Source: a virus. Taken from it: a DNA stretch of 32,013 nt. Where the stretch lies: positions 1 through 32,013 of the IMG/VR virus record IMGVR_UViG_3300044614_000246. The stretch is one strand, 5' to 3'. Below, one piece after another: positions 4,168 through 27,413 of the stretch; positions within the stretch are counted from its first letter, which is position 1, and each line of letters begins with the position of its first letter. Under the pieces are notes generated by a model. That model worked only from the letters and a program-made list of their open reading frames with translations. It had not been told where the DNA came from and searched no databases. A program made the position numbers and the translations under genes.

Positions 4168-4175
4168 TATATTTA
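4168..4175 (+). promoter_or_regulatory. TATATTTA motif, five bases before ATG 4181
   Basis: The motif sits directly after the endolysin stop and is followed by exactly five bases and then the holin start codon. The same arrangement occurs at 16444, 23634 and 27406. It differs from the host-type TAnnTTTG box only in its last base. Here it also forms a small inverted repeat (CTTATA-TT-TATAAG, 4166-4179). It may be a promoter giving a leaderless mRNA or a translation signal. Confidence 0.45.
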
Positions 4176-4180
4176 TAAGT

Positions 4181-4360
4181 ATGGAAACACTTAAAAAGGC
4201 GTTAGCATTGCTAAAAGAGAATTGGCGTACAACACTCGTTGGCGTCTTCTTTGCAGTATTTGGTGTAGCATACTTCTTCAAGTTGATAGATGCACAAGGT
4301 TTAACAATGGTTTGGGGCGCATTAGGTGGCGTAGGATTTACTATTTCTAAAGATGCGTAG
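4181..4360 (+). CDS. Candidate holin, 59 residues, two membrane helices
   Basis: The product has a short basic N-terminus (METLKKALALLKENWRTT), a hydrophobic helix at about residues 19-36 (LVGVFFAVFGVAYFFKLI), a short turn, and a second apolar, glycine-rich helix at about 40-55. A small protein with two membrane helices lying between an endolysin candidate and a spanin candidate fits a class II holin, which forms the membrane holes that release endolysin. Its stop overlaps the spanin start (ATGCGTAG). No sequence family was recognised; the call rests on topology and position. Confidence 0.65.
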   Translation: METLKKALALLKENWRTTLVGVFFAVFGVAYFFKLIDAQGLTMVWGALGGVGFTISKDA

Positions 4361-4763
4361 ATTTACATACATTTTAATTTTGAGTGCCTTATATGGCTTT
4401 ATTTTGAGTGGTTGTGCTACTCGTAAAATAAAGGAACGTGAATACGTTACTATTCGAGATACAATTATTACTCCACCAATCGTTAAATTAGATACCTTAA
4501 CGCAATGGAATGATAGATTTATTTACTTAAAAGATAGCACCAATCAAATGTCCGTAGTTATCGAACGAGTAAAAAACAATTATATCCGAGTAAAAGCCGA
4601 TTGTGTTCCTAAAAAGATTATAGTACCGATTACAAAAACAGTGGTTAAAAGCAAACAAGTAATTGTTGAAAGTTTCTTTTGGAAGCGTGTTTCATTAATC
4701 CTACTTTTGGCCATTGGTGTTTATGTGATTTACGCCAAACTCCTACCAAGAGGAGTAAATTAG
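4353..4763 (+). CDS. Candidate unimolecular spanin (lipoprotein with C-terminal membrane helix)
   Basis: The 136-residue product starts with a signal peptide and lipobox (hydrophobic residues 4-18, then L-S-G-C with the lipidated cysteine at 21). A periplasmic region of about 90 residues follows, and the protein ends with a transmembrane helix at about 113-131 (VSLILLLAIGVYVIYAK) and a short tail. One chain anchored in both membranes is the design of u-spanins such as T1 gp11, which fuse inner and outer membranes in the last step of lysis. Residue +2 is alanine, compatible with outer-membrane sorting. The gene overlaps the holin candidate and ends at the first GGGTGG hairpin, which closes the lysis operon. 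Confidence 0.7.
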   Translation: MRRFTYILILSALYGFILSGCATRKIKEREYVTIRDTIITPPIVKLDTLTQWNDRFIYLKDSTNQMSVVIERVKNNYIRVKADCVPKKIIVPITKTVVKSKQVIVESFFWKRVSLILLLAIGVYVIYAKLLPRGVN

Positions 4764-4786
4764 TTTAGTTTTTTGTTTAGGTTTAG

Positions 4787-4816
4787 GGGTGGTCGTTAGT
4801 TCGGCCACCCTTTTTT
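4787..4816 (+). terminator. Hairpin terminator, GGGTGG...CCACCC family
   Basis: Arms 4787-4794 and 4803-4810 pair over eight positions (one G-T wobble), enclosing eight bases, and are followed by six T residues. It ends the lysis operon. Confidence 0.8.
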
Positions 4817-4822
4817 ATTGAA

Positions 4823-4858
4823 TTTTTTCTCGTTGATTATCAATCAGTTACGACTATT
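4823..4858 (+). repeat. Dispersed intergenic repeat, copy A (TTGATTATCA...AGTTAC)
   Basis: This stretch aligns without gaps to 27261-27296 with 29 of 36 identical positions by hand count; the cores TTGATTATCA and AGTTAC are exact in both. Both copies lie in non-coding DNA ahead of a gene block. A regulatory or replication binding site is possible; nothing in the sequence decides which. Confidence 0.55.
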
Positions 4859-4906
4859 TTAAAAAAATAATTCATTTTTTTTATACAACCTATTATACCT
4901 TCTCTG

Positions 4907-4914
4907 TATATTTG
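4907..4914 (+). promoter_or_regulatory. Bacteroidetes-type -7 promoter box (TATATTTG)
   Basis: A perfect TAnnTTTG box lies 23 bases before ATG 4938 in an AT-rich gap downstream of a terminator, so it probably starts the early-type operon of small genes. No strong TTG -33 element was found. Confidence 0.6.
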
Positions 4915-4937
4915 TTCAACAAACAAAACGAAAAATT

Positions 4938-5156
4938 ATGACAACTCAACAAATAAACAACGAAAGAAACGAAAAAGGAATTTTTTTAACGTATAATGAT
5001 ACAGCTGGTTGGGAAGCAATATCAAGAGATGGAATTAATATGATAACATTTTATGAAGGTAAATTTTCATTTTCAAAAAATGATAACATAATTAAATTTT
5101 ATACAGAAAATGGATTTGCAAAAAGAATTACACAACTTTTAAATAGAGGTTATTAA
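4938..5156 (+). CDS. Small hypothetical protein, 72 residues
   Basis: This is the first gene after a terminator and a promoter box. The product is polar and aromatic, with likely alternating strands (GIFLTYNDTAGWEAISRDG, FYEGKFSFSKND). It resembles no family I can name. Its placement as a promoter-proximal gene in a run of tiny genes ahead of the recombination module suggests early expression, perhaps a host-takeover factor, but that is only inference. A GGGTGG hairpin follows immediately. Confidence 0.7.
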   Translation: MTTQQINNERNEKGIFLTYNDTAGWEAISRDGINMITFYEGKFSFSKNDNIIKFYTENGFAKRITQLLNRGY

Positions 5157-5162
5157 TCAATC

Positions 5163-5185
5163 GGGTGGCCCAAAAGCCACCCTTT
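5163..5185 (+). terminator. Hairpin, GGGTGGC...GCCACCC
   Basis: Perfect seven-base arms (5163-5169 and 5176-5182) with a six-base loop, then three T residues. The flanking text (TTAATCAATC before the hairpin) is repeated before the hairpin at 5659. The T tract is short and no promoter box follows before the next gene, so it may attenuate or protect mRNA ends rather than stop all transcription. Confidence 0.7.
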
Positions 5186-5209
5186 ACTTAAACTTAAAAT
5201 CACAAAACA

Positions 5210-5410
5210 ATGAAACACTTAACATTAACAGAAATCATCGAAGAATTAAACGAGTGCATTTTAAACACTCAATCGGATTTAACTAAAGATTGGAATGAAG
5301 AAAAAGAACTAATGTCAATCCAACTTCAAAGTTTATTAATCGCAAAAGCAAATTTGGAATTAATTATGCAAACAGGCAATCAAATTTTTAAATCATCAAT
5401 TTCTAAATAA
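5210..5410 (+). CDS. Small hypothetical protein, 66 residues
   Basis: The product is predicted mostly helical (LTEIIEELNECI, then SIQLQSLLIAKANLELI) with acidic patches, likely a small helical-bundle or coiled-coil protein. It starts 24 bases after a hairpin without a visible promoter, so it is probably read through from the 4907 promoter. No family recognised. Confidence 0.65.
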   Translation: MKHLTLTEIIEELNECILNTQSDLTKDWNEEKELMSIQLQSLLIAKANLELIMQTGNQIFKSSISK

Positions 5411-5418
5411 TCAAAATC

Positions 5419-5652
5419 ATGGCATACGACAAAGTATACGCAATAGGTTTACCCAACGGAGGTGAAGATATTTATTACAATTTAAGAGATTTGAAGAAGG
5501 CGTCTATTGAATACGCAAAAGAGTACGGAAGAGAAATATACTTTTATGTCTACTATTATTACGATAGTGGAAATATGAAACAAGATTGGTACGAAGCATA
5601 TCCAGACGGAACGATAACCAAAACTGGTAAAGGTATAAGTTACAATAATTAA
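5419..5652 (+). CDS. Small hypothetical protein, 77 residues, tyrosine-rich
   Basis: The product is rich in tyrosine and acidic residues (YAKEYGREIYFYVYYYYDSG) with an N-terminal hydrophobic strand and a probable alpha/beta fold. It lies eight bases after the preceding gene and is followed by another GGGTGG hairpin. No family or function could be recognised; the negative charge and small size are common in early phage proteins that bind host factors, but this is speculation. Confidence 0.65.
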   Translation: MAYDKVYAIGLPNGGEDIYYNLRDLKKASIEYAKEYGREIYFYVYYYYDSGNMKQDWYEAYPDGTITKTGKGISYNN

Positions 5653-5658
5653 TCAATC

Positions 5659-5685
5659 GGGTGGTGTAAAAGCCACCCTTATTTT
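5659..5685 (+). terminator. Hairpin, GGGTGGT...GCCACCC
   Basis: Arms 5659-5665 and 5672-5678 pair with one wobble; the loop is GTAAAA and T-rich sequence follows. The upstream ten bases are the same as at 5163, pointing to duplication of the whole element. Confidence 0.65.
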
Positions 5686-5691
5686 AAACTT

Positions 5692-5853
5692 ATGAAACTA
5701 ATCAAAGACAACTCACTTACACCGATAGAATTAGCAAGGTTAAGGTATCGGAAACTTTACGAACAGCAAGAGATTGCCAAAGCAGAACGCAAAGAAAATT
5801 TGCAGTTATCAACAAAAAACCTTATCTTTAATTTCTTAAACTTAATAAACTAA
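5692..5853 (+). CDS. Small hypothetical protein, 53 residues
   Basis: A short frame begins right after the hairpin and stops in a TAATG overlap with the next gene. The N-terminal part LTPIELARLRYRKLYEQQEI is a basic amphipathic helix; the C-terminus is more apolar (LIFNFLNLIN). No family recognised. Translational coupling to the next frame supports it as a real gene. Confidence 0.55.
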   Translation: MKLIKDNSLTPIELARLRYRKLYEQQEIAKAERKENLQLSTKNLIFNFLNLIN

Positions 5854-6026
5854 TGTCACAAAAAGTCCTAATCGTTGCAAATCCTCAAGGAGTAGATGCA
5901 ATCACAATCGGTAAAGAAGGAACGATTTTAAAAAAATTCTTCGACAAAGCATTAATCCAATTTACTAACGAGTTCGGTGAATTAGAAGAATGGTATTTCT
6001 CAAACAATGAATTTCAAAATCTATAA
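5853..6026 (+). CDS. Small hypothetical protein, 57 residues
   Basis: The frame is coupled by TAATG overlaps on both sides, to the gene before it and to the ERF gene after it. The product has a short beta-like start (KVLIVANPQGVDAITIG) and an acidic aromatic C-terminus (FGELEEWYFSNNEF). It is probably co-translated with the recombinase. No known domain. Confidence 0.6.
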   Translation: MSQKVLIVANPQGVDAITIGKEGTILKKFFDKALIQFTNEFGELEEWYFSNNEFQNL

Positions 6027-6583
6027 TGAAAAACCTAATCGAAAAGCTGGTCTTAATTCAAAGTGAATTAAAAGCGCCTAAAGGTCAAACAAACAAATTC
6101 GGTGGTTACAAGTATCGTTCATGCGAAGATATTTTAGAAGCGTTAAAACCACACTTAAAGGAGCAAGGATTGTTCTTATCTATTACCGACGAATTGGTAG
6201 CGCAAGGCAACCGATACTATATCAAAGCAAGTGCAATAATTACCGATGGCGTAGATAGATGGTCGGTAGATGGTTGGGCAAGAGAAGAAGAAGTTAAGAA
6301 GGGAATGGATAGTTCTCAAATTACAGGTGCTTCTTCAAGCTATGCTCGTAAGTACGCCTTGAATGGTTTGTTCGGAATTGACGATACTAAAGATAGCGAC
6401 GCAACAAACGATGGCGATATTCCACAAATGCCAACTATCAATCTACAAACTGCGGTTTATGATATTGGGTTAGCTAATAGTTTAGACGGATTGAAAACAA
6501 TTTGGGCGAAGTACCCACAATTCCAAAAGCAACAAGAGTTTATTGACGCAAAGGATAAAAAGAAAGTACAACTAAATGGATAA
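6026..6583 (+). CDS. erf: ERF family single-strand annealing protein
   Basis: The 185-residue protein has the ERF signature: FGGYKYRSCEDIL near residues 25-37 and QITGASSSYARKYALNGLFG near 98-117. ERF proteins form rings on single-stranded DNA and anneal complementary strands, allowing phage recombination and genome circularisation independent of RecA; P22 Erf is the model. The C-terminal 45 residues are variable and probably mediate partner contacts. It is flanked by a coupled small gene upstream and a recombination-associated gene that overlaps its end by eight bases. Confidence 0.9.
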   Translation: MKNLIEKLVLIQSELKAPKGQTNKFGGYKYRSCEDILEALKPHLKEQGLFLSITDELVAQGNRYYIKASAIITDGVDRWSVDGWAREEEVKKGMDSSQITGASSSYARKYALNGLFGIDDTKDSDATNDGDIPQMPTINLQTAVYDIGLANSLDGLKTIWAKYPQFQKQQEFIDAKDKKKVQLNG

Positions 6584-7052
6584 GCAACTATTAACCTTCG
6601 AGGGATTGCAAGTGCAGTCCCTTGATAAAGCCACTATAATCAATCAAAGTCAGTTAGTTAAGGCAAATATACTCGATGGCAATTTGGATGCGTTAGAAGT
6701 CCTTATTTCAGCCAAGAAGATGCAAGAACTTGGTAAGCAACTTGAAGATATATCAAGACCAATAGCAGAAGACAAAGTTATATTGGGTCGTGGCGAAGTT
6801 TATAAATTCCAATCTGTAGAGGTTATCGAAAAAACAATAGGTTCTAAAACCGATTACTCAACTTGCGATGACCCAGAGTGGGATAGTTTGCAACAAGCGT
6901 TAAGCGATATTAAAGATGCTATAAAAAGACGTGAAGCATTTTTAAGCGCAATAACATCTCCTACTACAATCGTAACAAACGATGGCGAAATAATTACAAT
7001 AAATCCACCAATCAAGTCAGGTCGGCTTGGTTTATCTTTAACAATTAAATAG
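6576..7052 (+). CDS. Hypothetical recombination-module protein, 158 residues
   Basis: This gene overlaps the ERF stop by eight bases. The product has a helical segment (ALEVLISAKKMQELGKQLED, residues 39-58), which may be a coiled coil, followed by beta-like and helical sections and a flexible C-terminus ending GRLGLSLTIK. Proteins in this position next to ERF often assist recombination, but I do not recognise the family. The function is inferred only from overlap with ERF. Confidence 0.6.
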   Translation: MDKQLLTFEGLQVQSLDKATIINQSQLVKANILDGNLDALEVLISAKKMQELGKQLEDISRPIAEDKVILGRGEVYKFQSVEVIEKTIGSKTDYSTCDDPEWDSLQQALSDIKDAIKRREAFLSAITSPTTIVTNDGEIITINPPIKSGRLGLSLTIK

Positions 7053-7060
7053 TATATTTG
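7053..7060 (+). promoter_or_regulatory. Bacteroidetes-type -7 promoter box (TATATTTG)
   Basis: A perfect TAnnTTTG box begins directly after the stop codon at 7052, 18 bases ahead of ATG 7079. A TTGG at 7027-7030 could serve as a -33 element but the spacing of about 23 bases is longer than usual. Confidence 0.55.
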
Positions 7061-7078: not shown

Positions 7079-7297
7079 ATGACAGAAGAAAAAAAAGAAA
7101 GCTGGGGTGCTTGGAAAAAGCAAACGGCAAAAGGCGAAGTAATTAACTTTACTTTAGAAGGAAAGCGCTACTCAATGTGGGCGAACTCCTACAAGAACGA
7201 AGAAAAACAACCCGACTACAAAATCTATGTAAACGATTATGTAGCACCAACAACAAACAATGATTTAGAACCGAAGGCAACGGACTTGCCATTTTAA
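7079..7297 (+). CDS. Small protein with SSB-like C-terminal tip (DLPF)
   Basis: The 72-residue product has a short charged N-terminus, a central beta-like stretch (INFTLEGKRYSMWAN) and a C-terminus ending ATDLPF. The acidic-x-Pro-Phe ending is the hallmark of bacterial SSB tails, which recruit repair and replication enzymes. At 72 residues it is too short for a full OB fold, so it may be a reduced single-stranded-DNA protein or a mimic that captures host SSB partners. The phage helicase at 10327 ends in a similar EVPF. It sits behind its own promoter box between recombination and replication genes. Confidence 0.6.
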   Translation: MTEEKKESWGAWKKQTAKGEVINFTLEGKRYSMWANSYKNEEKQPDYKIYVNDYVAPTTNNDLEPKATDLPF

Positions 7298-7299
7298 TT

Positions 7300-11336: not shown

Positions 11337-11660
11337 ATGAGCAATTATAAGAACCATTTAAATAATTTACAAAGCCAACTTGAAGGATTAAGATACTTTC
11401 AAGAAGAACGATTGCGTTTACTAATGCTTGGAATTGACTTGCAAATTATCAATCGTGATTTAGAAGATTTAAAAGGGTACGATGAAACTATTGACAAGGC
11501 ATCTTCACTAACTACAAAAGCAAAGGATTTACATGATACGATGTTTGCACGTTATGAAGCAGCAACCATACAACTTGATATAGTTAGAAACGAAGCAATG
11601 GCTTTATGTCAATATACAAAGGATTTAGAGAAACAACTTGAAGCACATAAAGAATTGTAA
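11337..11660 (+). CDS. Coiled-coil hypothetical protein, 107 residues
   Basis: Nearly the whole product is heptad-rich helix (NYKNHLNNLQSQLEGLRYFQ; later AATIQLDIVRNEAMALCQYT), suggesting a long dimeric coiled coil. It starts two bases after the helicase stop and its stop is coupled to the nuclease gene by TAATG. It may be a scaffold or adaptor in the replication complex. No family recognised. Confidence 0.65.
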   Translation: MSNYKNHLNNLQSQLEGLRYFQEERLRLLMLGIDLQIINRDLEDLKGYDETIDKASSLTTKAKDLHDTMFARYEAATIQLDIVRNEAMALCQYTKDLEKQLEAHKEL

Positions 11661-12055
11661 TGAAGAACGCTGAAGATATAGTACAACTTGCAGTTGTAAA
11701 TTATTTGCGTTTGAAATACCCAAAGGTTAGGTTCTTGGCTAATTATCTTTCGGGTGCAAGATTGCCGATATATTTGGCAAAGAAAGGCAAAGCGCTTGGT
11801 CAAGCTGGTCAAGGTACACCCGATTTGTTTATCTTTTTCAACAATGGAAAATATACTTCATTGGCAATAGAACTAAAGGCGCAAGGCAAAACGCCTTTTA
11901 AAAAAGATGGAATGTTAAAAACTGATGAGCATTTGAATAAACAAAATGACTATATATGTTATCTAAATACTATTGGATTTTATGCTACTTTTTGCGTTGG
12001 CATCGATGAAGCAATAAGTACAATAGATAGATATATGGCAAATGAACTCGAATAA
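11660..12055 (+). CDS. VRR-NUC domain nuclease
   Basis: The 131-residue protein fits the VRR-NUC family of PD-(D/E)XK nucleases: GQGTPDLFIF (51-60) supplies the catalytic aspartate and AIELKAQGK (69-77) the E-x-K pair. A histidine/glutamine-containing region follows (DEHLNKQNDYICYL). Stand-alone viral VRR-NUC proteins cut branched DNA such as Holliday junctions or flaps. This fits resolution of replication or recombination intermediates before packaging. It overlaps the sigma-like gene by 14 bases. Confidence 0.85.
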   Translation: MKNAEDIVQLAVVNYLRLKYPKVRFLANYLSGARLPIYLAKKGKALGQAGQGTPDLFIFFNNGKYTSLAIELKAQGKTPFKKDGMLKTDEHLNKQNDYICYLNTIGFYATFCVGIDEAISTIDRYMANELE

Positions 12056-12593
12056 ATTAATAGCCGAGTATTACGAGAATAAGGAATTAGTTACTTTCTT
12101 CAAGAATATAGCCAACGAATGGTGGGAAGAACTACGCCAAGATGTGTTTTTAACTGTATGCGAATACGATAAAGACAAGATTTTAGAAATGCAATCTAAA
12201 AAATACCTTAAATTCTTCATCATTCGTATTGCTTTAAACCAATTTAGAAGCAAAACATCTAAATTTTATTACCAAAACTTCAAGAATAATAACGTAGGTA
12301 TTGCATTAAATGACGATGAGATGGTTGAAAATGCAGATGAAATACTTTATTCTAATCTTATTTACGATACTCAAGGCGAAACAGCTTACGATATTGTAGA
12401 AGCGAAGATAGTATTGGCAGAAAACTCAATAGAAAAGCTACGTTACTTTGAACGTGAAGTCCTAAAATTATATTTACAATTAGGTACTTATAAAAAAGTA
12501 TCGGAAGATACAGGTATTCCTATTCGCACAATAGCCAACGGAGTTAAAAACGCAATTCAAAATGTCAAATTAAATATCAAAGAAAATGAATGA
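12042..12593 (+). CDS. Sigma-70 family (ECF-like) sigma factor homologue
   Basis: The 183-residue product has the two-domain layout of ECF sigma factors. A sigma-2-like region spans about 25-75 (WWEELRQDVFLTVCEYD, then KYLKFFIIRIALNQFRSKT), and a sigma-4-like helix-turn-helix spans about 130-178 (YFEREVLKLYLQLGTYKKVS, IPIRTIANGVKNAIQNVK). It could redirect host RNA polymerase to phage promoters, and the TATATTTA motif before four genes is a candidate target. It overlaps genes on both sides. A few phage proteins of this type lack promoter-recognition activity and act in terminase-like or regulatory roles, so activity is unproven. Confidence 0.7.
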   Translation: MNSNKLIAEYYENKELVTFFKNIANEWWEELRQDVFLTVCEYDKDKILEMQSKKYLKFFIIRIALNQFRSKTSKFYYQNFKNNNVGIALNDDEMVENADEILYSNLIYDTQGETAYDIVEAKIVLAENSIEKLRYFEREVLKLYLQLGTYKKVSEDTGIPIRTIANGVKNAIQNVKLNIKENE

Positions 12594-16204: not shown

Positions 16205-16212
16205 TATCTTTG
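16205..16212 (+). promoter_or_regulatory. Bacteroidetes-type promoter box (TATCTTTG, followed by C)
   Basis: A canonical TAnnTTTGC box lies directly after the terminase stop and only four bases before ATG 16217, so its transcript would be leaderless or nearly so. A TTCGG at 16181-16185 is a weak -33 candidate at about 20-base spacing. Confidence 0.6.
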
Positions 16213-16216: not shown

Positions 16217-16411
16217 ATGAAAGATTTAGCGTTTAAGTTTTTTGACGAAATGAAAGTTGGGCAAGTAGTAGCGATTAAAGAAATTGCAAAGAAAGACCCA
16301 GAGGTATTTAAGCAATACCTACGAGATTATATTGACGAAGGTGGCCATATAACAATATCAAGCGATTGGAAAAAGTTTCGTAAGGATAGCGACCCAAAAG
16401 ATTTTGTATAG
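16217..16411 (+). CDS. Small hypothetical protein in its own transcription unit (moron-like)
   Basis: The 64-residue product (MKDLAFKFFDEMKVGQVVAI ... YLRDYIDEGGHITISSDWKK) looks like a small winged-helix or similar alpha/beta fold, with a helix and a beta hairpin at the end. The gene has its own promoter box and a perfect hairpin terminator, and sits between terminase and tail genes. That is the arrangement of a moron, an extra gene inserted in a structural operon and often active against other phages or the host. No family is known. Confidence 0.7.
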   Translation: MKDLAFKFFDEMKVGQVVAIKEIAKKDPEVFKQYLRDYIDEGGHITISSDWKKFRKDSDPKDFV

Positions 16412-16436
16412 GAACATAAGGTATGTTCCTTTTTTT
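16411..16436 (+). terminator. Perfect hairpin terminator
   Basis: Arms GGAACATA (16411-16418) and TATGTTCC (16422-16429) pair perfectly around a three-base loop, followed by seven T residues. It closes the 16217 unit and is unrelated to the GGGTGG family. The TATATTTA motif follows at once. Confidence 0.85.
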
Positions 16437-16443: not shown

Positions 16444-16451
16444 TATATTTA
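16444..16451 (+). promoter_or_regulatory. TATATTTA motif, five bases before ATG 16457
   Basis: It follows a terminator directly and precedes the tail chaperone start by exactly five bases. Because a new promoter is needed here after the terminator, this copy is the best evidence that the motif is a promoter. Confidence 0.55.
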
Positions 16452-16456: not shown

Positions 16457-17125
16457 ATGAAGCATTGGAATAACTTAACCATTGAAGATTATCAGCATAT
16501 CTACGGAATTATCGTAGATGAAACATTGAATGACTTTGACAAGGAAGTTAAACTCGTTGCTTTGGTTAATGAATTGACCGAAGAAGAAGTAGATAACCTA
16601 CCTATTGACAAGTTCAAATCAATGAAAGATACTCTTGCGTTCTTACACGATGGAAAGATTGAAGGAAAGTTAAAAGGTATTATCAAAGCGAATGGTAATA
16701 AATACCAAATCTCTTTAGATGCTTTTAAGATTACTTACGGACAATACGTTGATTTAACTTCTTTTATGAGCGCTGATGGTGGATTAGTTGGAAACCTACA
16801 TTTAATTATGGCATCTTTAGCTATGCCAGTTAAACGTAATTGGTTAGGTATTCCTTACGTTGATGGTTACGGAGCAAAGGCACATGCCGAAGTTGCAGAA
16901 GATATGCTAAAAGCAAACTTTGCAGATTGCCATAATACCTGTATTTTTTTTTGCAAACTTATAAACGACTTAACAAAAGTTACAGTTCGTTATTCGGTCA
17001 AAGAGATACTGAAGAACAAGAAAGCAACGAAGGAGAAATTGCGAGAGATACTGAAACCTTTGAAGCAAGATGGGGGTGGGTCTACAATGCTGAACTTATT
17101 AAAGGATTTGAAGGAATTGAATTAG
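16457..17125 (+). CDS. Tail assembly chaperone, short form (gpG-like)
   Basis: The 222-residue protein starts with LTIEDYQHIYGII and a helical region (EEEVDNLPIDKFKSMKDTLA), a pattern I associate with tail assembly chaperones of Bacteroidetes phages. These bind the tape measure and guide tail-tube growth. The gene carries nine T residues at 16944-16952, where slippage by one base back would switch into an overlapping frame reaching 17241. Without slippage translation continues to 17125 with a further charged helical tail (KEILKNKKATKEKLREI). The gene opens the tail operon after a terminator and a TATATTTA motif. Confidence 0.65.
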   Translation: MKHWNNLTIEDYQHIYGIIVDETLNDFDKEVKLVALVNELTEEEVDNLPIDKFKSMKDTLAFLHDGKIEGKLKGIIKANGNKYQISLDAFKITYGQYVDLTSFMSADGGLVGNLHLIMASLAMPVKRNWLGIPYVDGYGAKAHAEVAEDMLKANFADCHNTCIFFCKLINDLTKVTVRYSVKEILKNKKATKEKLREILKPLKQDGGGSTMLNLLKDLKELN

Positions 17126-19100: not shown

Positions 19101-21487
19101 TGGCTACCCAAAGAACACAAATATATCTTGAAGGCGTTTCTCTTGACTTGGATAAAAACGTTGATATTGATTTTACTTATTCAATAGCCGATATATCCGA
19201 TTTTGAAAAGCGTACAACAACGTACTCGAAAACAGTGGTACTTCCTGGTACTGCGCATAATAGTTTCTTATTGGGTAATTACTTTGATTTCAATATCAAT
19301 AACGATTATAGTAATACGCTTGATAACGTAGGCGTAAACTACAACCCTTTGAAGAAAGCGTTTGTTAAAGTTACGCTTGATAACGTCGAAGTATTTGTAG
19401 GCGTTTTAAGGTTATTAGAGATAACTTCTAAAGACGGAGAGATACAATACCAATGCGCACTATTCGGTTCGTTAGGTGGCTTGTTTACTGCATTAGGCGA
19501 TACGTTATTAACCGATTTAGATTTAAGTGATTTAGACCATACTTACAATATATCTACAATTACTAATTCTTGGGATACTACCGATTTAGTTGCCGATGGC
19601 TTTGTTTACCCAAGTGCTAATTATGGACTTGGTGTAAATGGCGATGAAACCCAATACGATGTAATGAATTTTAGACCTGCCGTATCGGTTAAAAGAGTAT
19701 TCGATGAAATTATAGCACAAGCTGGTTATACATATCAGGGAAATTTTTGGGATAGCAATAATTTAGATAAATTAATTCTTCAAAATGGAGAAGAAAAGTT
19801 TAGTGCTTTTTACGACCAATTAGCATCTGCAAATTATGTTGCAAGAACTACAAATGGCCCACTTGAAATTACTCCAATATCTTCAAATGGTTTAACAATA
19901 AATACAACACTTGACAGATTTATAAATAATAGTGCCAATACTATAAATTTAAAATTAACGTATGATATTTATGGTACTAACGCAATGGCAATATTTACTT
20001 CTTGTGTTATCAATACATCAATTCAAGATAGTACAAGCGCAATAAAATCAGTAGTTTCAGATACTATTTCTTATGGAACAGGAACAACTATTGAAGAACA
20101 TAATGTATTTACAAGAAATGTAATTTTAGAACCTGGCGATAGTATTCAATGGTATTTTTCTTATGTAGATATTTTAGGTGGAAGTATGGGTTCGGGATAT
20201 ACTTTAAAAAGTACATCTATAATTTCAGCAAGTTCATTGTCTTCAAGTTCTAAAATACCTGTAATTTATAATACAACTATTCTTGGTGCTTCAATAGTAC
20301 CCGAAGGAATTAAGCAATCTGATTTCATTAAGAGTATTATTAACTTATTGAATTTATATATAATTCAAGACCCAAATAATGAATTTGATTTAACTTTTAT
20401 ACCATATAACGAATTCTATACAGGAGAAATTATTGATTGGACTGATAAAAGAGATTTGGCAAAAGGATTTAGCGTTAAAGGTTCGAATGAGTTTATTCCA
20501 CAATCTTATTCTTTTAGATATAAAGACGACAATGATTTTTATTGTAAAACTTATAAGAATAGATATACTGCAAATTACGGAGATTTAAAATACGAAACTC
20601 AAAACCAATTTAGTAAAGACGATACTCCTATTGAACTTCCGTTTTCTTTAGCACCGATTGTAAATACAGGAAATAGCACAAGGTTAATGGCCCAACTTTA
20701 TGATATAAATACCGATGGTAGTTATAAGCAAGTAAAGTGTAATCCAAAATTAGCGTTTTGGGGTGGTAAAAAAGTAGGTGGAACAACTTATTCTATAAAA
20801 AATGGAGATACTGTTCTTTCTGCTGGTTTATACGAATACGGATATGCTGGGCATATTTACGACCCAAGTGCAACGAGTAGCGGTTTATTGTGGGATTTAT
20901 GTTTTTCTGCTCCGAGGGAGGTTTATTTTAACATAGGTACTTATCCAACATTAAACCTTTATCATTTTTATTATAAACAATTTATTGATAGCCAAAATAA
21001 CAAAGACACAAAATTGATAACACTTTATTTATTACTCAATGCCATTGATATAATGAACTTGAGTTTCCGCAAATATGTGCGAATGGATAACGGTATTTAT
21101 TACCTAAATAAAATTGATGGTTATAACCCATTGGGTAACGAACTTACAAAAGTAGAACTATTGCGCATTGTTGCGCTTGAAGAACTTGATGTTTATGTTG
21201 ATTATACGCCAAGTCCTGTTGAAGCATTCCTTTCGTTCCCAAAAGTAACATTGGATAAATCACTTCCATTTAGTAAATCTTTTGTCGTTCAATGGCAATT
21301 TGATGCTACTGGTACAATTACAAATGGAACTCAAACAATAACAATCGGTGCTGGTCAATTATTTGGTAACGGAACTCCTGTTGTTGGTAGTGGTATTGGT
21401 GGATATTTTACTTTCATTAGAATACTTGAGCCGACAAGCGATGAAGGTTATATTTATAATTATACAGGAGATTACAGCACATACTAA
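19100..21487 (+). CDS. Large tail tip / baseplate hub-like protein, 795 residues
   Basis: The N-terminal region (YSIADISDFEKRTTTYSKTV, then VLPGTAHNSFLLGNYF) is characteristic of a large tail protein family in Bacteroidetes phages, probably the hub or tail-tip protein. The middle is beta-rich and repetitive in serine/threonine; near the end NALDIMN-like and FRKYVRMDNGIYYLNKIDGY patterns occur, followed by a glycine-rich C-terminal domain of about 90 residues (TGTITNGTQTITIGAGQLFG). It probably contacts the host surface or carries the fibre. Coupled by TAATG to the preceding tail gene. Confidence 0.65.
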   Translation: MATQRTQIYLEGVSLDLDKNVDIDFTYSIADISDFEKRTTTYSKTVVLPGTAHNSFLLGNYFDFNINNDYSNTLDNVGVNYNPLKKAFVKVTLDNVEVFVGVLRLLEITSKDGEIQYQCALFGSLGGLFTALGDTLLTDLDLSDLDHTYNISTITNSWDTTDLVADGFVYPSANYGLGVNGDETQYDVMNFRPAVSVKRVFDEIIAQAGYTYQGNFWDSNNLDKLILQNGEEKFSAFYDQLASANYVARTTNGPLEITPISSNGLTINTTLDRFINNSANTINLKLTYDIYGTNAMAIFTSCVINTSIQDSTSAIKSVVSDTISYGTGTTIEEHNVFTRNVILEPGDSIQWYFSYVDILGGSMGSGYTLKSTSIISASSLSSSSKIPVIYNTTILGASIVPEGIKQSDFIKSIINLLNLYIIQDPNNEFDLTFIPYNEFYTGEIIDWTDKRDLAKGFSVKGSNEFIPQSYSFRYKDDNDFYCKTYKNRYTANYGDLKYETQNQFSKDDTPIELPFSLAPIVNTGNSTRLMAQLYDINTDGSYKQVKCNPKLAFWGGKKVGGTTYSIKNGDTVLSAGLYEYGYAGHIYDPSATSSGLLWDLCFSAPREVYFNIGTYPTLNLYHFYYKQFIDSQNNKDTKLITLYLLLNAIDIMNLSFRKYVRMDNGIYYLNKIDGYNPLGNELTKVELLRIVALEELDVYVDYTPSPVEAFLSFPKVTLDKSLPFSKSFVVQWQFDATGTITNGTQTITIGAGQLFGNGTPVVGSGIGGYFTFIRILEPTSDEGYIYNYTGDYSTY

Positions 21488-21496: not shown

Positions 21497-23626
21497 ATGG
21501 CAACTGAAGAAATAGCGTTAAAGATAACGACCGATGCTTCCCAAACGGAAAAGTCGGTCAAAAGTATAAGACAGGAATTAAGGGAAGCGCAACAAAATGC
21601 AGTAGACCTTTCAAGACGATTTGGTGAACTTTCTCCCGAAGCATTAGCTGCTGCTCAAAAGGTAGCAAACTTAAAAGATGAAGTAGGCGATTTAAAAAAT
21701 AGAATTGATGCCTTAAATCCCGATGCAAAGTTTCGTGCATTTTCTTCTGCGCTTCAAGGTGTAGCAGGTGGATTTGCAGGTGTACAAGGTGCAATAGGTT
21801 TATTCGGTACTGAAAGCCAAGAACTTGAAAAGCAATTACTAAAAGTCCAAAGTGCTTTAGCTTTATCCGAAGGTATTAATAGCGTACTCGAAGCAAAAGA
21901 TAGTTTCTTAAATTTAGGTGCAATTATCAAGACGAAGGTTGTAACTGCATTTAGTACATTAAGGGGTGCTATTATAGCAACAGGTATTGGCGCACTTGCT
22001 GTTGGATTAGCTACTGTTATAGCTTATTGGGACGAAATTAGCGATGCAATTAGTGGGGCAACAAAAGAAACAAAGGCATACGGAGAAGCACAAAAAGAAG
22101 CTAATAAGGAAATTGAAAAAGGATACGAGAATTTAATTTCAGTAAGTACCGCATTTAAGGCAGCAAGAGAAGGAGCAATTTCAAAGTCTGAAGCGTTAGA
22201 TATATACAATGAAAAACTTGGTGACTCAATTGGTAGAGCCACAACATTAGAACAAGCTGAAAGATTATATCGTGCAAATAGTGCTAATTATATAAAATCA
22301 GTAACTGCAAGGGCTACTGCTCAAATATTGTTAGGAAAAGCAGCACAAGCATCTGCAAAAGCAGCAACTGGTGAAGATGTTGAATTATCTTTTTTCGATA
22401 AAATAAGCGCAGGAATTACTGCCGTTACAACACTTGGATTTGGAACTGAATATAAATTAAATGAATTAAGAAGTAAAAATCGTCAAGCAAATCAAAAAGA
22501 AATAAATTTTTATACAGGTTTGGCTCAAACCGAATTGGAAAAAGCAAGTGAAGCAGAAGCACAAATACAAACTGTTGCAGTTGCAAACGGAACAAGTATT
22601 GTAAAAAAAGGTGTAAAGGAACAAACTGCAATAAAAAAAGAAGGAATTACTCAACAGGCAAATGATAAAAAAGTTGAGATGACCCAAGAGGAAAAAGATG
22701 CACAAGCTAAAAAAGAATTATTTGAGAAAAACCAAAAAGAACTTCAAGATTTAAATGCTAAAACTGCTGAAGAAAATCGCCTTGCAAAACTTTCTGAATT
22801 TGAAAGAGATATTGAGGAACTTACAACCGAGTATAATGATAAACTTGCAAAGGCAAAAGAGTTCAATACCAACATTGATGCAATAACTGAAGAATACGAA
22901 AGGGAAAAAAGAGAAAAGCAAAAAGAACAAGATGCAAAAGATTTTGAAACTCAACTTACAAAAGATGCAGAAGCTATTGCAAAAGTAGAAGGAGATTTTG
23001 CAAATGACTTGGCAATTATTGATGCTCAACGTGAGGCAATATTAAATAATACTTCTTTAACTGAAGAAGAACGTACTAAAATATTAGAAGAAAATTCAAA
23101 TGCAAGAAGAGCAATAGAAGATGCCGAAACGGAACATAAGAAAAAACAAGTAGGTGAAACAATAAAATTACTTGATGATTTAGGTTCGGTGCTTGGGCAA
23201 CAAACTGCTGCTGGTAAAGCATTGGGTATAGCTACTGCGTTAATCAATACTTATCAAGGTGCTACGGAAGCATTGAAAGAGAAATCTACGTTGCCACAAC
23301 CATTCTCAACTATTGCACGTTTTGCATCGGCTGCTGCAATTATAGCCAATGGTATTCGTACTGTTAAGCAAATTACTTCGGTTAAAGTTCCTGGTGGTGC
23401 AGGTGGTGCAGGTGGCGCACAAGGTGCAGCAAATCCAATTAGTGGTGGTGGAGTTCCTACACAAGCACCAATAGGTGCAGCAGTGCAAGTAACAAATACG
23501 CAAACTGTTGGTACAACTGATGTAAACGTGCAAAATCAAACTGCCGTAAAAGCATTCGTTGTAGAACGTGATATTACAGATAGCCAAGATAGGGTAGCAA
23601 AAATTAAGGCAGCTGCCACATTATAA
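21497..23626 (+). CDS. Tape measure protein
   Basis: The 709-residue protein has the expected features: a heptad-rich N-terminus (SVKSIRQELREAQQNAVDLS), a glycine-rich hydrophobic segment at about 155-180 (ATGIGALAVGLATVIAYW), a very long charged coiled coil in the middle (about 380-560), and a C-terminal apolar region (AAGKALGIATALINTYQGAT) with a Gly-Gly-Ala rich stretch. Tape measures set tail length and help inject DNA; at about 1.5 angstrom per residue it would predict a tail near 105 nm. It is longest but one in the genome. Confidence 0.85.
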   Translation: MATEEIALKITTDASQTEKSVKSIRQELREAQQNAVDLSRRFGELSPEALAAAQKVANLKDEVGDLKNRIDALNPDAKFRAFSSALQGVAGGFAGVQGAIGLFGTESQELEKQLLKVQSALALSEGINSVLEAKDSFLNLGAIIKTKVVTAFSTLRGAIIATGIGALAVGLATVIAYWDEISDAISGATKETKAYGEAQKEANKEIEKGYENLISVSTAFKAAREGAISKSEALDIYNEKLGDSIGRATTLEQAERLYRANSANYIKSVTARATAQILLGKAAQASAKAATGEDVELSFFDKISAGITAVTTLGFGTEYKLNELRSKNRQANQKEINFYTGLAQTELEKASEAEAQIQTVAVANGTSIVKKGVKEQTAIKKEGITQQANDKKVEMTQEEKDAQAKKELFEKNQKELQDLNAKTAEENRLAKLSEFERDIEELTTEYNDKLAKAKEFNTNIDAITEEYEREKREKQKEQDAKDFETQLTKDAEAIAKVEGDFANDLAIIDAQREAILNNTSLTEEERTKILEENSNARRAIEDAETEHKKKQVGETIKLLDDLGSVLGQQTAAGKALGIATALINTYQGATEALKEKSTLPQPFSTIARFASAAAIIANGIRTVKQITSVKVPGGAGGAGGAQGAANPISGGGVPTQAPIGAAVQVTNTQTVGTTDVNVQNQTAVKAFVVERDITDSQDRVAKIKAAATL

Positions 23627-23633: not shown

Positions 23634-23641
23634 TATATTTA
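23634..23641 (+). promoter_or_regulatory. TATATTTA motif, five bases before ATG 23647
   Basis: The motif lies eight bases after the tape measure stop and exactly five bases before the protease start, at the border between tail and head genes. Confidence 0.45.
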
Positions 23642-23646: not shown

Positions 23647-24234
23647 ATGGACTTACCTATTTATAAACTTATAATCAGTTCGGATTTGGAAGACGAAGCC
23701 GAAGTTGATTTTGTGGCATTGGTTGATAGACCTGCCATACAACGCAATTTCCTTGCTTTTAAAGAACGTCAAAAGTTCGAGATTATAAGCGAAGACAAAC
23801 GTATTTTAAGTGGCGCATTGATGATTGCAGATATGCCTATTTATAGAAACAATGAAGAGTTCGGTGAACACTATGTTGTATTCGATGCCGATACTATTCA
23901 ACAAATCGCAGAGAAGTTTTTTAAGAAGGGTTATCAATCAAACGTAAACGAAATGCACGACTCATCTAAAGCGATTGAAGGCGTTACCATGTTCGAAAGT
24001 TGGATTGTAAATCGTGACATGGGCAAGATGCCAATCAAAGGATTTGAAGACGCAAAAGATGGTTCTTGGTTCGGTAGCTACAAAGTAGATAACGAGGATA
24101 TTTGGGCAAAGGTAAAGAGTGGAGAATTTCAAGGATTTAGTGTTGAAGGGATATTCGGCTACGCTGATAGATTAACAAAAGAAGAATTAATGGTTTCTCA
24201 AATCAAAAATATATTAGCACAAGCTGGTATTTAA
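23647..24234 (+). CDS. Prohead maturation protease (XkdF-like, Peptidase_S78_2)
   Basis: The 195-residue protein matches the XkdF-type serine protease: DFVALVDRPAIQ (21-32), ILSGALMIADMPIYRN (53-68), NEMHD with catalytic His104, FESWIV, and GEFQGFSVEG with the likely nucleophile Ser165. These proteases cleave scaffold and capsid during head maturation. It is encoded directly before scaffold and capsid genes, as expected. It starts downstream of a TATATTTA motif. Confidence 0.85.
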   Translation: MDLPIYKLIISSDLEDEAEVDFVALVDRPAIQRNFLAFKERQKFEIISEDKRILSGALMIADMPIYRNNEEFGEHYVVFDADTIQQIAEKFFKKGYQSNVNEMHDSSKAIEGVTMFESWIVNRDMGKMPIKGFEDAKDGSWFGSYKVDNEDIWAKVKSGEFQGFSVEGIFGYADRLTKEELMVSQIKNILAQAGI

Positions 24235-24282: not shown

Positions 24283-24897
24283 ATGGAAGCAAAGAAAGCA
24301 TTAGAACAAATCAAAAGTTTGTTGTTTGCAGACCAAGTTGCAGAAGTGGTTTCCCAAGAAGAAGTTACTATTGAATTTGCTGAAGGTGTTTTAGCTGACG
24401 GAACTATTGTTAAGTTCGACAAGTTAGAAGCTGGTGGTATGATTTCGGTAATTACTCCAGACGGAGAAATTCCTGCTCCTGTTGGCGAACACGAATTAGA
24501 AGACGGAACTATTATCGTAGTTACCGAAGAAGGCATGATTGCCGAAGTTAAAATGGTAGAAGCTGACGGAAATGAAGTTGAAGTAGATGTTGAAATGTCC
24601 GAAGAAGACGAAGACGCTAAACCTTCAATCGAAGAAGAAGTTATTGCTGAACCACAAGTTGATAGGTTCGCTGAAATCAGTGAAGCATTCAATTCTAAAC
24701 TTGCTGAAGTTGAAAGCAAAGTGGATTTGTTAAACGACGTAACCAAAAAATTGGTAGAGTTCATGGACGCATTCGCTAAAGTAGAAACTGCACAAGAAAC
24801 CCAAGCACCTAAAAATGCTTTTTCGGCACAAAACAAAGTAAGCAAAGCCGATGCCTACAAAAAATTACAAAACATTTTTCAAACACTTAAAAAATAA
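24283..24897 (+). CDS. Putative capsid scaffolding protein
   Basis: The 204-residue protein lies between protease and major capsid genes. It has two copies of an acidic motif around LADGTIVKFDKLEAGGM and LEDGTIIVVTEEGMI, an acidic low-complexity region (about 90-120), and a C-terminal coiled coil (FNSKLAEVESKVDLLNDVTK) with a basic end, the usual architecture of scaffolds whose C-terminus binds capsid. A TATATTTA motif also occurs at 24256, but 19 bases before this start. It is probably cleaved by the upstream protease. Confidence 0.75.
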   Translation: MEAKKALEQIKSLLFADQVAEVVSQEEVTIEFAEGVLADGTIVKFDKLEAGGMISVITPDGEIPAPVGEHELEDGTIIVVTEEGMIAEVKMVEADGNEVEVDVEMSEEDEDAKPSIEEEVIAEPQVDRFAEISEAFNSKLAEVESKVDLLNDVTKKLVEFMDAFAKVETAQETQAPKNAFSAQNKVSKADAYKKLQNIFQTLKK

Positions 24898-24902
24898 TTA
24901 AA

Positions 24903-25853
24903 ATGGCTTTAGATTTAACTGGTTTAACTAACTATGTAAAAGAGAACGAGCAACAACTTGCTACTTCCCTTGTATTCAAACCAAAAACTGCTCAACTTAT
25001 TGAGGGTGCTGGTAACGTAATGGTGGGCGTAAAATCATCAGAAAAAATTAACATCATGGAAACCAACGCTGTATTCCAAGCAGGTGGTACTTGTGGTTTT
25101 TCTTCAAGTGGTACTACTGCGTTTACTCAGCGTTCGGTAGCACCTGGTAAAATCAAAGTAAACGAAAGCATTTGCCCTAAAGCATTCGAGGCGAAATATA
25201 CTCAAAAAGCATTACGTGCAGGTTCTTACTATGATTACATGCCATTCGCTGACGAGTATTCTGCAAAGAAAATTGAAGTTATCGGTGCTGCATTAGAAAC
25301 TGCTTTATGGCAAGGTGATACTGCATCTTCAAATGCTCAATTAGCACGTTTCGATGGTTTATTGAAACTTATTGCTCCAAGTGGAACTCCTGTAACTGGT
25401 GTTGTAGTTGGTAATACTTCGGAAGCAACTTCAATTACTTCTTCTAACATCATTGGTTTAGTTGATGACGTTTACACTGCAATCCCTGCTTCTATCGTTG
25501 CAAATGGTGATGTAGTTATCTTCGTTGGTATGGACACTTTCCGTACTTACACTGTTGCTTTGAAAGAAGCTAACTTGTTCCATTATGCTGCTGAAAGCGT
25601 TGATTTCGAAATCGTACTTCCTGGTACTAACGTGAAATTAGTTGCAGTTAACGGATTGAACGGAACTGACCAAATGGTTGCTACTCGTTTGTCTAACCTT
25701 TATTTAGGTGTAGATTTATTAAACGAAGAAGAAAGATTTGAGTTGTTCTATGCGAAAGAAGCTGACGAAATGCGTTTCGTTGCCGAGTTCAAAATGGGCG
25801 TAAACTATGCTTTCCCAACTGAAGTAGTTTGGTTTGGTTTAGCCGAAGCATAA
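24903..25853 (+). CDS. Major capsid protein
   Basis: The 316-residue protein follows protease and scaffold genes and has a smooth alpha/beta composition with PFADEYSAKKIEVIGAALET (helix) and YLGVDLLNEEERFELFYAKE (C-terminal strand region), consistent with an HK97 fold. It uses a more biased, optimal-looking codon set than its neighbours, as expected for the most abundant virion protein. A strong terminator follows. The family is not named with certainty but position and size make the role clear. Confidence 0.8.
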   Translation: MALDLTGLTNYVKENEQQLATSLVFKPKTAQLIEGAGNVMVGVKSSEKINIMETNAVFQAGGTCGFSSSGTTAFTQRSVAPGKIKVNESICPKAFEAKYTQKALRAGSYYDYMPFADEYSAKKIEVIGAALETALWQGDTASSNAQLARFDGLLKLIAPSGTPVTGVVVGNTSEATSITSSNIIGLVDDVYTAIPASIVANGDVVIFVGMDTFRTYTVALKEANLFHYAAESVDFEIVLPGTNVKLVAVNGLNGTDQMVATRLSNLYLGVDLLNEEERFELFYAKEADEMRFVAEFKMGVNYAFPTEVVWFGLAEA

Positions 25854-25881
25854 TTAATTAATTAAATTTTAACATAAAGAG

Positions 25882-25911
25882 GGGTAGGTGGTAAACTGCC
25901 TACCCTTTTTT
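25882..25911 (+). terminator. Hairpin terminator after the capsid gene
   Basis: Arms GGGTAGG (25882-25888) and CCTACCC (25899-25905) enclose ten bases and are followed by six T residues. It resembles the GGGTGG family in design but the arms differ. It probably limits transcription past the capsid gene. Confidence 0.75.
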
Positions 25912-25929
25912 AATAACTCGAAAAAAAAT

Positions 25930-26442
25930 ATGGCTTGTGCTTTAACTCAAGGGTACACTTTAGATTGCAAAGACAGTTTAGGTGGCTTAAAATCAGTCTT
26001 ATTTATCGAAAGCGAAAACGTATCAGTAGACACCGAAACCGATGGTGTTATTACCGATATTCAATTAGCAGTAGGTAAATTTTTCTACAAATATGAATTG
26101 GTAAAAGAAACTTCTTCTTTCACCGAAACCATTACAGCGAATGTTCAAAACGGAAGCGTATTCTACGCACAAGAATTGACAATCATTCTTAACAAATTAC
26201 AAGCGAACACTCGTAACGAAATCTTGTTATTAGCTAAAAATACTTTGGTTGCTATCGCTGAAGATAGAAATGGTAAGTATTGGTATTTAGGTCAAACTAA
26301 CGGATTGGATATTACAGGTGGAACTTCTGCAAGTGGTACTGCTTCTGGAGATAGAAGTGGATATGAATTAACCTTTAGTGGTCAAGAACCTGCTCTTGCT
26401 CCTGAAGTGTTATCATCAATCATTGGTGGTTTGATTGACTAA
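25930..26442 (+). CDS. Putative major tail tube protein
   Basis: I take the start at ATG 25930 (MACALTQGYTLDCKDSLGG); an in-frame GTG at 25888 would lie inside the terminator hairpin. The 170-residue product is beta-rich (SVLFIESENVSV; FYKYELVKETSSFTETITAN) with an extended loop region rich in glycine and serine (LDITGGTSASGTASGDRSGY), as seen in tail tube proteins of Bacteroidetes phages. Placement after the capsid gene rather than next to the tape measure is unusual but occurs. The call rests on the fold pattern and size. Confidence 0.7.
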   Translation: MACALTQGYTLDCKDSLGGLKSVLFIESENVSVDTETDGVITDIQLAVGKFFYKYELVKETSSFTETITANVQNGSVFYAQELTIILNKLQANTRNEILLLAKNTLVAIAEDRNGKYWYLGQTNGLDITGGTSASGTASGDRSGYELTFSGQEPALAPEVLSSIIGGLID

Positions 26443-26464
26443 TCAAATTAACTAAAAAAGAAAA

Positions 26465-26490
26465 GGGTGGTTGCTTTATTGCTTCCACCC
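26465..26490. terminator. Convergent hairpin terminator, GGGTGG...CCACCC family
   Basis: Arms 26465-26470 and 26485-26490 enclose 14 bases. Read on the minus strand the hairpin is followed by a T-rich stretch, so it can stop the converging genes from both sides. Confidence 0.7.
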
Positions 26491-26498
26491 TTATTTGT

Positions 26499-26789
26499 TT
26501 ATAAGCGTTCTAACGGACTTTCGTAGTACGCTTCATTTTGGTCATGGCCACACCCTCCATCGTCGTAGCCATCGCTAAAGTTTTCCTCGCTTTCTACTTC
26601 TATTGCGTATTCTTCTTCTTCAATAAAAGAGTTTAATAATTGCTTTAAGTATTTTATTGTACCGATTGAATATCCGTAACAATAAGCGTGGTTTTCCAAT
26701 TTTGTATCTAATAAATCTTCGGTATATTTTTGCGATGCTTCTAAAATTCTTAACATTGATTTTAGTTGTTCTAATTGTAATTGGTTCAT
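26499..26789 (-). CDS. Acidic small hypothetical protein, 96 residues
   Basis: This minus-strand gene encodes a helical N-terminus (QLEQLKSMLRILEASQKYTE) followed by a strongly acidic tail (EEEEYAIEVESEENFSDGYD, then DGGCGHDQNEAYY). The acidic end resembles DNA-mimic proteins in charge only. It is the last gene of a three-gene minus-strand unit running against the structural operon. No family recognised. Confidence 0.65.
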   Translation of the reverse strand: MNQLQLEQLKSMLRILEASQKYTEDLLDTKLENHAYCYGYSIGTIKYLKQLLNSFIEEEEYAIEVESEENFSDGYDDGGCGHDQNEAYYESPLERL

Positions 26790-26792
26790 GGT

Positions 26793-26909
26793 TTATTTTT
26801 TATTGGTTTTTACTTGATTGATTTTTGCTGTTACATAATCACAAAGACCTGCAAATGCGATAAGTCCGATAAACGGAATAGCTAAAAAGATTGCGATTTC
26901 TAAAGTCAT
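26793..26909 (-). CDS. Small membrane protein, 38 residues
   Basis: The frame (ATG at 26909-26907, stop at 26795-26793) lies three bases ahead of the 26789 start. The product has one hydrophobic helix (LEIAIFLAIPFIGLIAFAGL) and a basic tail (AKINQVKTNKK), the topology of tiny regulatory membrane peptides. No family known. Its fit in the gap between two minus-strand genes supports it. Confidence 0.55.
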   Translation of the reverse strand: MTLEIAIFLAIPFIGLIAFAGLCDYVTAKINQVKTNKK

Positions 26910-26924
26910 AATTTTGAGTTTTTT

Positions 26925-26948
26925 AAAGGGTGGCTTTTTAGACCACCC
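26925..26948 (-). terminator. Hairpin, GGGTGG...CCACCC family, minus strand
   Basis: On the minus strand the text AATC-GGGTGG, a loop with AAAA, then CCACCC-TTT repeats the form seen at 5163 and 5659. The T tract is short. No promoter box is visible between it and the next minus-strand gene. Confidence 0.65.
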
Positions 26949-26961
26949 GATTTGTTAATAA

Positions 26962-27162
26962 TTAATTACCATATACACGCAAACTTCCATCTGCGTATTC
27001 AATTTCAAGGGACTTACCTTCACTTCGTTTCCAATCAATCCATTCTTCAAGGTCTTCTATAAAGACAAATTCAAATGAGTAATTGCCTTGTGCATCTAAA
27101 ATCCAAAATGCACGTTTTCCGTAATCTTGATTTCCGTAGAAATCTTGCTTTAATTTAATCAT
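26962..27162 (-). CDS. Small hypothetical protein, 66 residues
   Basis: I place the start at the ATG ending at 27162 (MIKLKQDFYGNQDYGKRAFW). A longer in-frame start at 27219 is rejected because the promoter box 27209-27216 would then lie inside the gene. The product is acidic and aromatic (EFVFIEDLEEWIDWKRSEGK, then LEIEYADGSLRVYGN) with likely strands. It is promoter-proximal in the minus-strand unit and resembles, in size and style, the small genes at 4938-5652. No family recognised. Confidence 0.65.
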   Translation of the reverse strand: MIKLKQDFYGNQDYGKRAFWILDAQGNYSFEFVFIEDLEEWIDWKRSEGKSLEIEYADGSLRVYGN

Positions 27163-27208
27163 TGTTTTTTGTTTTTGGTTTACTGCTTCGCTTCGTGCGT
27201 TGCATATG

Positions 27209-27236
27209 CAAATATACATATTATTTTTAAATGCAA
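27209..27236 (-). promoter_or_regulatory. Bacteroidetes-type promoter for the minus-strand unit (TTG ... TATATTTGC)
   Basis: On the minus strand TATATTTG occupies 27216-27209 and is followed by C; a TTG at 27236-27234 lies 17 bases upstream. This is the best-formed host-type promoter in the window and drives the three minus-strand genes with a leader of about 40 bases. Confidence 0.7.
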
Positions 27237-27260
27237 GAAAAAAAGTAAAAAAAAAGAAAT

Positions 27261-27296
27261 TTTTTTCTTCTTGATTATCAACGAGTTACAACGATA
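27261..27296 (+). repeat. Dispersed intergenic repeat, copy B
   Basis: This copy matches 4823-4858 (29 of 36 bases by hand count) with exact TTGATTATCA and AGTTAC cores. It lies in the 256-base non-coding region between the minus-strand unit and the fibre operon, right before the iteron-like block. Confidence 0.55.
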
Positions 27297-27299
27297 TTT

Positions 27300-27372
27300 C
27301 AACAAGTGTTAAACAAAATAAATTTTTGTTCAACAAAATTCAACAAAAGAAAAGAAAAGAAAAGAAAAGAAA
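27300..27372 (+). repeat. Iteron-like block in non-coding DNA, ending in five AAAAG units
   Basis: The block opens with CAACAAGTGTT, one base, AACAAAAT; has a second partial unit at 27327-27339 (TGTTCAACAAAAT); then CAACAAAAG; and runs into five perfect AAAAG units (27345-27369). It aligns with 9680-9753 inside the initiator gene (63 of 74 columns identical by hand count). It could be a second origin element, a recombination-derived copy, or a decayed piece of an initiator gene. Confidence 0.5.
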
Positions 27373-27405
27373 TACAATATATAGGTGTTTGTGTTTTTAG
27401 GTTTT

Positions 27406-27413
27406 TATATTTA
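27406..27413 (+). promoter_or_regulatory. TATATTTA motif, five bases before ATG 27419
   Basis: The motif precedes the fibre operon, which needs its own promoter because the upstream unit is on the other strand. The five-base spacing matches the other three copies. Confidence 0.55.

Follow-up and report, generated by a model that had tools for sequence, protein, structure and literature searches.

A recurrent octamer precedes four late-region genes

We analyzed a 32,013-base IMG/VR virus record, IMGVR_UViG_3300044614_000246 (hereafter the window), from a virus that probably infects Bacteroidota bacteria. The octamer TATATTTA lies in this window at positions 4168, 16444, 23634 and 27406, and each copy is separated by exactly five bases from an ATG (4181, 16457, 23647 and 27419), precisely as reported in an earlier note, made from the letters alone, that proposed these sites as candidate late promoters. 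The first of the four genes follows a DUF5675 gene (3706–4164). Among the late functions that had been assigned to them, the protease at 23647 is borne out (PF14550 above the Pfam cut-off) and the tail chaperone at 16457 is weakly matched (Phage_TAC_7, 21.9 bits against a cut-off of 25), while the genes at 4181 (Pfam and family profile scans) and 27419 drew no family match. Two copies follow a terminator or a strand switch, as the note had also observed: a hairpin with a T run (16410–16430) precedes the box at 16444, and minus-strand genes (26499–26789 and 26962–27219) precede that at 27406. These two small genes form an insertion-like pair between the capsid and fibre modules and thereby create the strand switch before the fourth site.

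The 16-mer pattern TATATTTA-N5-ATG occurs four times in the window, compared with 0.09 expected from dinucleotide shuffles. The octamer alone occurs 13 times against 6.2 expected, so the informative part is its placement before ATG rather than the octamer itself. The background scan proposed in the note gave a similarly sharp result, with only 4 of 882 ATG trinucleotides on both strands of the window carrying TATATTTA at −13 to −6.

We next assessed conservation in relatives gathered from IMG/VR with the protease, the sigma-like protein described below and gene 3706 as queries, and designated the closest group (protease identity of at least 76%) clade A. In clade A, TATATTTA with its end five bases before ATG ranks first among positional 8-mers upstream of starts, and near-complete relatives carry it ahead of the same four families. 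Counting distinct 40-base upstreams for all homologues of 45 window genes, we found the box in 47 of the 50 homologous upstreams of these families (counts by family in Table 1) and in none from the other 41; TAHHTTTG, the host-type box, is absent from the upstreams of the four families. The box is confined, in other words, to 4 of 45 families, those with late (lysis or structural) function, and is kept there in relatives. In clade B, it still stands ahead of the 16457 homologue, whose protein is 25% identical, and a TTAATATTTA variant lies upstream of the homologue of the protease. Extra copies of TATATTTATGTATATG in records G001, G010 and G025 probably lie in coding sequence, close to where the 19100 homologue ends.

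The box has a partner 18 bp upstream

We aligned 31 non-redundant sites, anchored on the box and with families weighted equally. These sites were picked for exact TATATTTA, hence the invariance of the box in the alignment, and the unbiased measure of its conservation is the family count given above. Outside the box, a T immediately precedes it, giving TTATATTTA, and a G stands 18 bp upstream at 90% (families weighted; 1.74 bits), followed by two pyrimidines, in all four families. A random shift of each family produced a column of equal height in 4 of 3000 trials. The window contains the combined pattern G(T/C)(T/C)-N16-TATATTTA-N5-ATG four times, with 0.02 expected; with N4–7 allowed before ATG, the pattern is found in no record outside clade A. 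Among the sites, the distance from box to ATG ranges from 4 to 7. In one protease relative (L032), the intergenic sequence is unrelated, yet G-T-T recurs at about the position of the element.

A lone −10 without a second element, as in T4, was our first reading by eye and was ruled out by the upstream G in the family-weighted alignment. The note had likewise described a lone −7 box, overlooking both the additional T and the element 18 bp upstream; the putative promoter is bipartite. A chance origin of the pattern was rejected on the shuffle counts, the scan of 882 ATGs, the restriction to families and the bipartite count.

Predicted RNA start at the start codon

The −7 box of Flavobacterium johnsoniae, TAHHTTTG, spans −12 to −5; RNA starts 4–5 nt further on, and the final G hardly varies (PMC6847099). 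With this F. johnsoniae spacing, RNA from TATATTTA-N5-ATG should begin at the A of ATG or one base before it, and N7 sites would give a leader of 2–3 nt. Leaderless mRNAs make up 5.5% in F. psychrophilum (PMC9723704), and leaders shorter than 10 nt about 3.7% in B. thetaiotaomicron (PMC7366714). In the same phages as the octamer, TAHHTTTG boxes lie mostly 16–31 nt ahead of other starts; 28 of 41 TATATTTA boxes lie 5–7 nt from the start, with a peak at 5 nt before ATG. Exceptions are TAHHTTTG boxes 3–4 nt ahead of gene 16217 and 6 nt ahead of some 7079 homologues. Relatives likewise carry TAHHTTTG 3–4 nt before the 16217 homologue, which suggests a host-type near-leaderless promoter for this small gene, situated after the terminase and before the terminator. 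A scan for TTGACA/TATAAT sigma-70 sites found fewer than in shuffles and was uninformative.

The likeness to the promoter of the Bacteroidota primary sigma factor (−33 TTTG and −7 TAHHTTTG) raises the question of whether that factor reads the phage sites, the change of the final G of TAnnTTTG to A leaving them weak in the absence of help from a phage activator or modified polymerase (sigma appropriation). The two boxes share their length, the TA..TTT core and the distance to the expected RNA start; seven of eight bases match TATATTTG, at the same position relative to the RNA start (PMC6847099), and the upstream G, near −32, falls close to the Bacteroidetes −33 TTTG element. However, all four phage sites end in A, as the note had pointed out, and although F. 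johnsoniae promoters almost always keep the final G (PMC6847099), the four families have TATATTTA and lack TAHHTTTG. The comparison with the −33 TTTG element cuts both ways: the G near −32 precedes pyrimidines rather than follows them, in GYY at a fixed 18-bp distance, and the −33 element of F. johnsoniae is itself weak (PMC6847099). Moreover, the phage start codon stands at the expected RNA start rather than behind a leader; the corresponding sequence of a sister lineage, CGTTA, is unlike the host box; and the phage carries an extracytoplasmic function (ECF)-like sigma gene. We therefore regard recognition by the host primary sigma factor as unlikely.

An element that abuts the ATG could alternatively be a translation-initiation signal of late genes, an AU-rich, Kozak-like context with no promoter. 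An A stands at −3 in all four sites, and this base is a positive determinant in F. johnsoniae (PMC6847099). However, A at −3 occurs in 31 of 46 window genes, 27 of which lack the box, and the capsid gene at 24903 also lacks it. The ATG distance varies from 4 to 7, yet the gap of about 18 bp between the second element and the box is kept, that element lying once inside a terminator hairpin, and the motif of a related lineage differs. Two spaced elements with a varying distance to ATG and a conserved terminator upstream of one copy favour a promoter, and we consider a translation signal very improbable.

A sigma-like protein is encoded beside a VRR-NUC-like gene

The gene at 12042–12593 is a candidate for the reader of these sites. 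Its product matches the sigma factor family PHROG 1740 (14 of 15 members, best 2.6e-6). The best PDB matches of its AlphaFold model are mostly ECF sigma factors, covering both domains over ~180 columns (first E 5e-3, probability 1.0), and sigma4 domains are among the fold matches of a region-4-like helix-turn-helix at the C-terminus; the model thus suggests a two-domain sigma2 plus sigma4 architecture. The A1 sequence search against the PDB returned no meaningful match. The gene is present in 11 of 11 clade-A relatives longer than 18 kb, and the clade B copy has diverged. Distant relatives without the box at these genes gave no match to the window sigma profile, and several of them carry a sigma factor of the P12024L type instead. 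In one clade-A record (G006, 20748–21264; L123, L130), the sigma-like gene is split across frames with stops, possibly through an assembly error or as a broken copy.

Table 1 Coordinates of putative promoter elements and associated genes in the window.
Feature	Position	Strand	Remark
Probable late promoter 1, upstream element GTC	4149..4151	+	16 bases before box
Probable late promoter 1, TATATTTA box	4168..4175	+	Kept in 5/5 homologous upstreams
59-aa small membrane-type protein, holin candidate	4181..4360	+	First gene after promoter 1
Intrinsic-terminator-like hairpin and T run	16410..16430	+	Directly upstream of promoter 2
Probable late promoter 2, upstream element GTT	16425..16427	+	Within 3′ arm of terminator hairpin
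Probable late promoter 2, TATATTTA box	16444..16451	+	14/14 homologous upstreams
Tail-assembly-chaperone-like gene	16457..17125	+	First of tail module
Probable late promoter 3, upstream element GCC	23615..23617	+	Inside tape-measure gene 3′ end
Probable late promoter 3, TATATTTA box	23634..23641	+	18/21 homologous upstreams
Prohead protease (Peptidase_S78_2/XkdF)	23647..24234	+	First gene of capsid module; Pfam PF14550 above cut-off
Probable late promoter 4, upstream element GTT	27387..27389	+	
Probable late promoter 4, TATATTTA box	27406..27413	+	Past strand switch; 10/10 homologous upstreams
119-aa gene, no family match	27419..27778	+	Upstream of tail-fibre-like gene 27778–29958
VRR-NUC-like gene	11660..12055	+	Directly upstream of sigma-like gene; same order in P12024L
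ECF-like sigma factor	12042..12593	+	Candidate reader of late promoters
Host-type −7 box TACTTTTG	2304..2311	+	22 nt before start at 2334
Host-type −7 box TATATTTG	4907..4914	+	23 nt before start at 4938
Host-type −7 box TATATTTG	7053..7060	+	18 nt before start at 7079
Host-type box TATCTTTG	16205..16212	+	4 nt before start at 16217; breaks leadered pattern

A diverged sigma and motif in the P12024L lineage

The isolate Nonlabens phage P12024L (NC_018272) shares with the window the order VRR-NUC, sigma-70 region 2 protein and, further along, large terminase. Its gp35 is above the Pfam cut-off for Sigma70_r2, and, when aligned together with its relatives, gp35 matches the sigma profile of the window (probability 94%, E 1.7e-7, 14% identity). 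P12024L has AAAAC-N16/17-CGTTA-N6/7-ATG ahead of seven late-region genes (179, 3031, 5412, 22090, 24771, 26011 and 27612), against 0.09 sites expected and a maximum of 1 in 100 shuffles. AAC plus CGTT at 16–17 bp is an ECF-type promoter. Relatives keep the motif in the same families (for example 22090, 4/4; 26011, 6/6; 24771, 6/9; 179, 19/38), and it is nearly absent from their other families, with one CGTTA case at 23946. Of these seven sites, three or four have a host-type TATATTTG box in divergent orientation next to AAAAC, and this box could partly explain why AAAAC is conserved there; the other sites are without it.

Short minus-strand genes stand back-to-back with putative late promoters of P12024L (L151) at 2750–3031, 5123–5412 and 25649–26011, some with a TATATTTG box, AAAAC lying beside or overlapping this divergent box. 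Records G016–G019 (L154–L161) have further variants abutting the start codon, such as TTGTTATATAAGT-ATG, CGTTATATTAGT-ATG and TGTTATATTTATA-ATG, which suggest a graded series linking the P12024L and window motifs.

Bacteroidota are rich in ECF sigma factors (seven in F. psychrophilum; PMC9723704) and P12024L-type sites resemble ECF promoters, yet the phages' own ECF-like sigma diverges in parallel with the motif, leaving the slimmest of chances that the sites are read by one of the host's alternative (ECF) sigma factors.

The four sites as probable phage-specific late promoters

Two elements at fixed spacing, restriction to late genes, an upstream terminator, a varying distance to ATG and lineage-specific sequences together amount to promoter behaviour. 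We consider it likely that the four sites are late promoters, bipartite and near-leaderless, read most probably by the phage ECF-like sigma factor. As far as sequence can test it, this supports the late, phage-specific and (near-)leaderless promoter class proposed in the note. Each late promoter would comprise G(T/C)(T/C) near −32 and a −10/−7 element TTATATTTA. Transcription would begin on the A of the start codon or no more than about three bases from it, and the mRNAs of the lysis, tail, capsid and fibre modules would have no leader or almost none. Host-type TAHHTTTG boxes, mostly with leaders, would serve the early and middle genes, and the sigma factor would be made from the early/middle region. 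The most likely reader would be the host core RNA polymerase together with this two-domain protein, and the P12024L lineage would follow the same design with sigma and motif both diverged. We infer the transcription start, the late timing and the recognition of this motif by the sigma factor each from the DNA.

Several observations weigh against this interpretation. The product of 12042–12593 has no sigma domain (Sigma70_r2 or Sigma70_r4) above the Pfam cut-off; its AlphaFold model, two helical domains, is of moderate confidence (predicted local distance difference test score, 64), and whole-chain template modelling scores of its PDB matches are low. The co-occurrence of sigma type and motif tracks phylogeny and is therefore no independent evidence of recognition. 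The upstream G is partly accounted for in other ways in two families: it is part of the terminator stem in the 16457 family, where the hairpin and T run persist in relatives while the stem sequence varies, and it falls within tape-measure alanine codons in the 23647 family. In addition, a terminator-like hairpin (25882–25905) follows the major capsid gene, and the gene after it (ATG near 25942) is without a TATATTTA box; for that reason it may rely on read-through.

Relation to known late promoters and implications

T4 late promoters also have an AT-rich −10 before late genes, read by host core polymerase with a phage sigma-family protein, gp55. However, gp55 resembles sigma in domain 2 only (PMC2988020), whereas the window protein appears sigma2- plus sigma4-like and so falls outside the domain-2-only type; the sites here also have an upstream element and a different sequence. 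In phages phiEco32 and 7-11, a phage sigma drives middle and late structural genes and host promoters the early ones, according to the part of the source drawn on here (PMC4331800). The motif given there is TAATGTATA, compared with TTATATTTA here, hosts and genome type differ, and that part does not note a leaderless arrangement. The closest parallel is the unannotated P12024L motif found here, which shares the syntenic VRR-NUC and sigma genes and the bipartite, near-leaderless layout, including the homologous protease, but which has AAAAC-N16/17-CGTTA in place of GYY-N16-TATATTTA and a diverged sigma.

Our literature search found no description of Bacteroidota phage late promoters. Relative to the literature searched, the Bacteroidota phage class is new, as are its fusion with the ATG and the way in which sigma and motif have diverged in parallel. 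In the isolate phage collection, we found no homologue of the window-type sigma, 16457 or 19100, and a host search across genome contigs gave one match, which was spurious.

The chances are about even that this is a widespread design among Bacteroidota siphophages, in which each lineage has its own small ECF-like sigma beside VRR-NUC, together with a late promoter that matches it and is fused with the start codon. Under this design, most operons for structural and lysis proteins would be translated from leaderless mRNAs, and sigma and promoter would have diversified in step to give natural orthogonal pairs. The analysis provides both a consensus and a candidate sigma for each of two lineages, one of which includes the cultured phage P12024L. 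It predicts that late phage proteins would be made from leaderless mRNAs in bacteria where these are rare and Shine-Dalgarno signals are absent, and the sigma–promoter pairs could serve as orthogonal expression tools in these bacteria.

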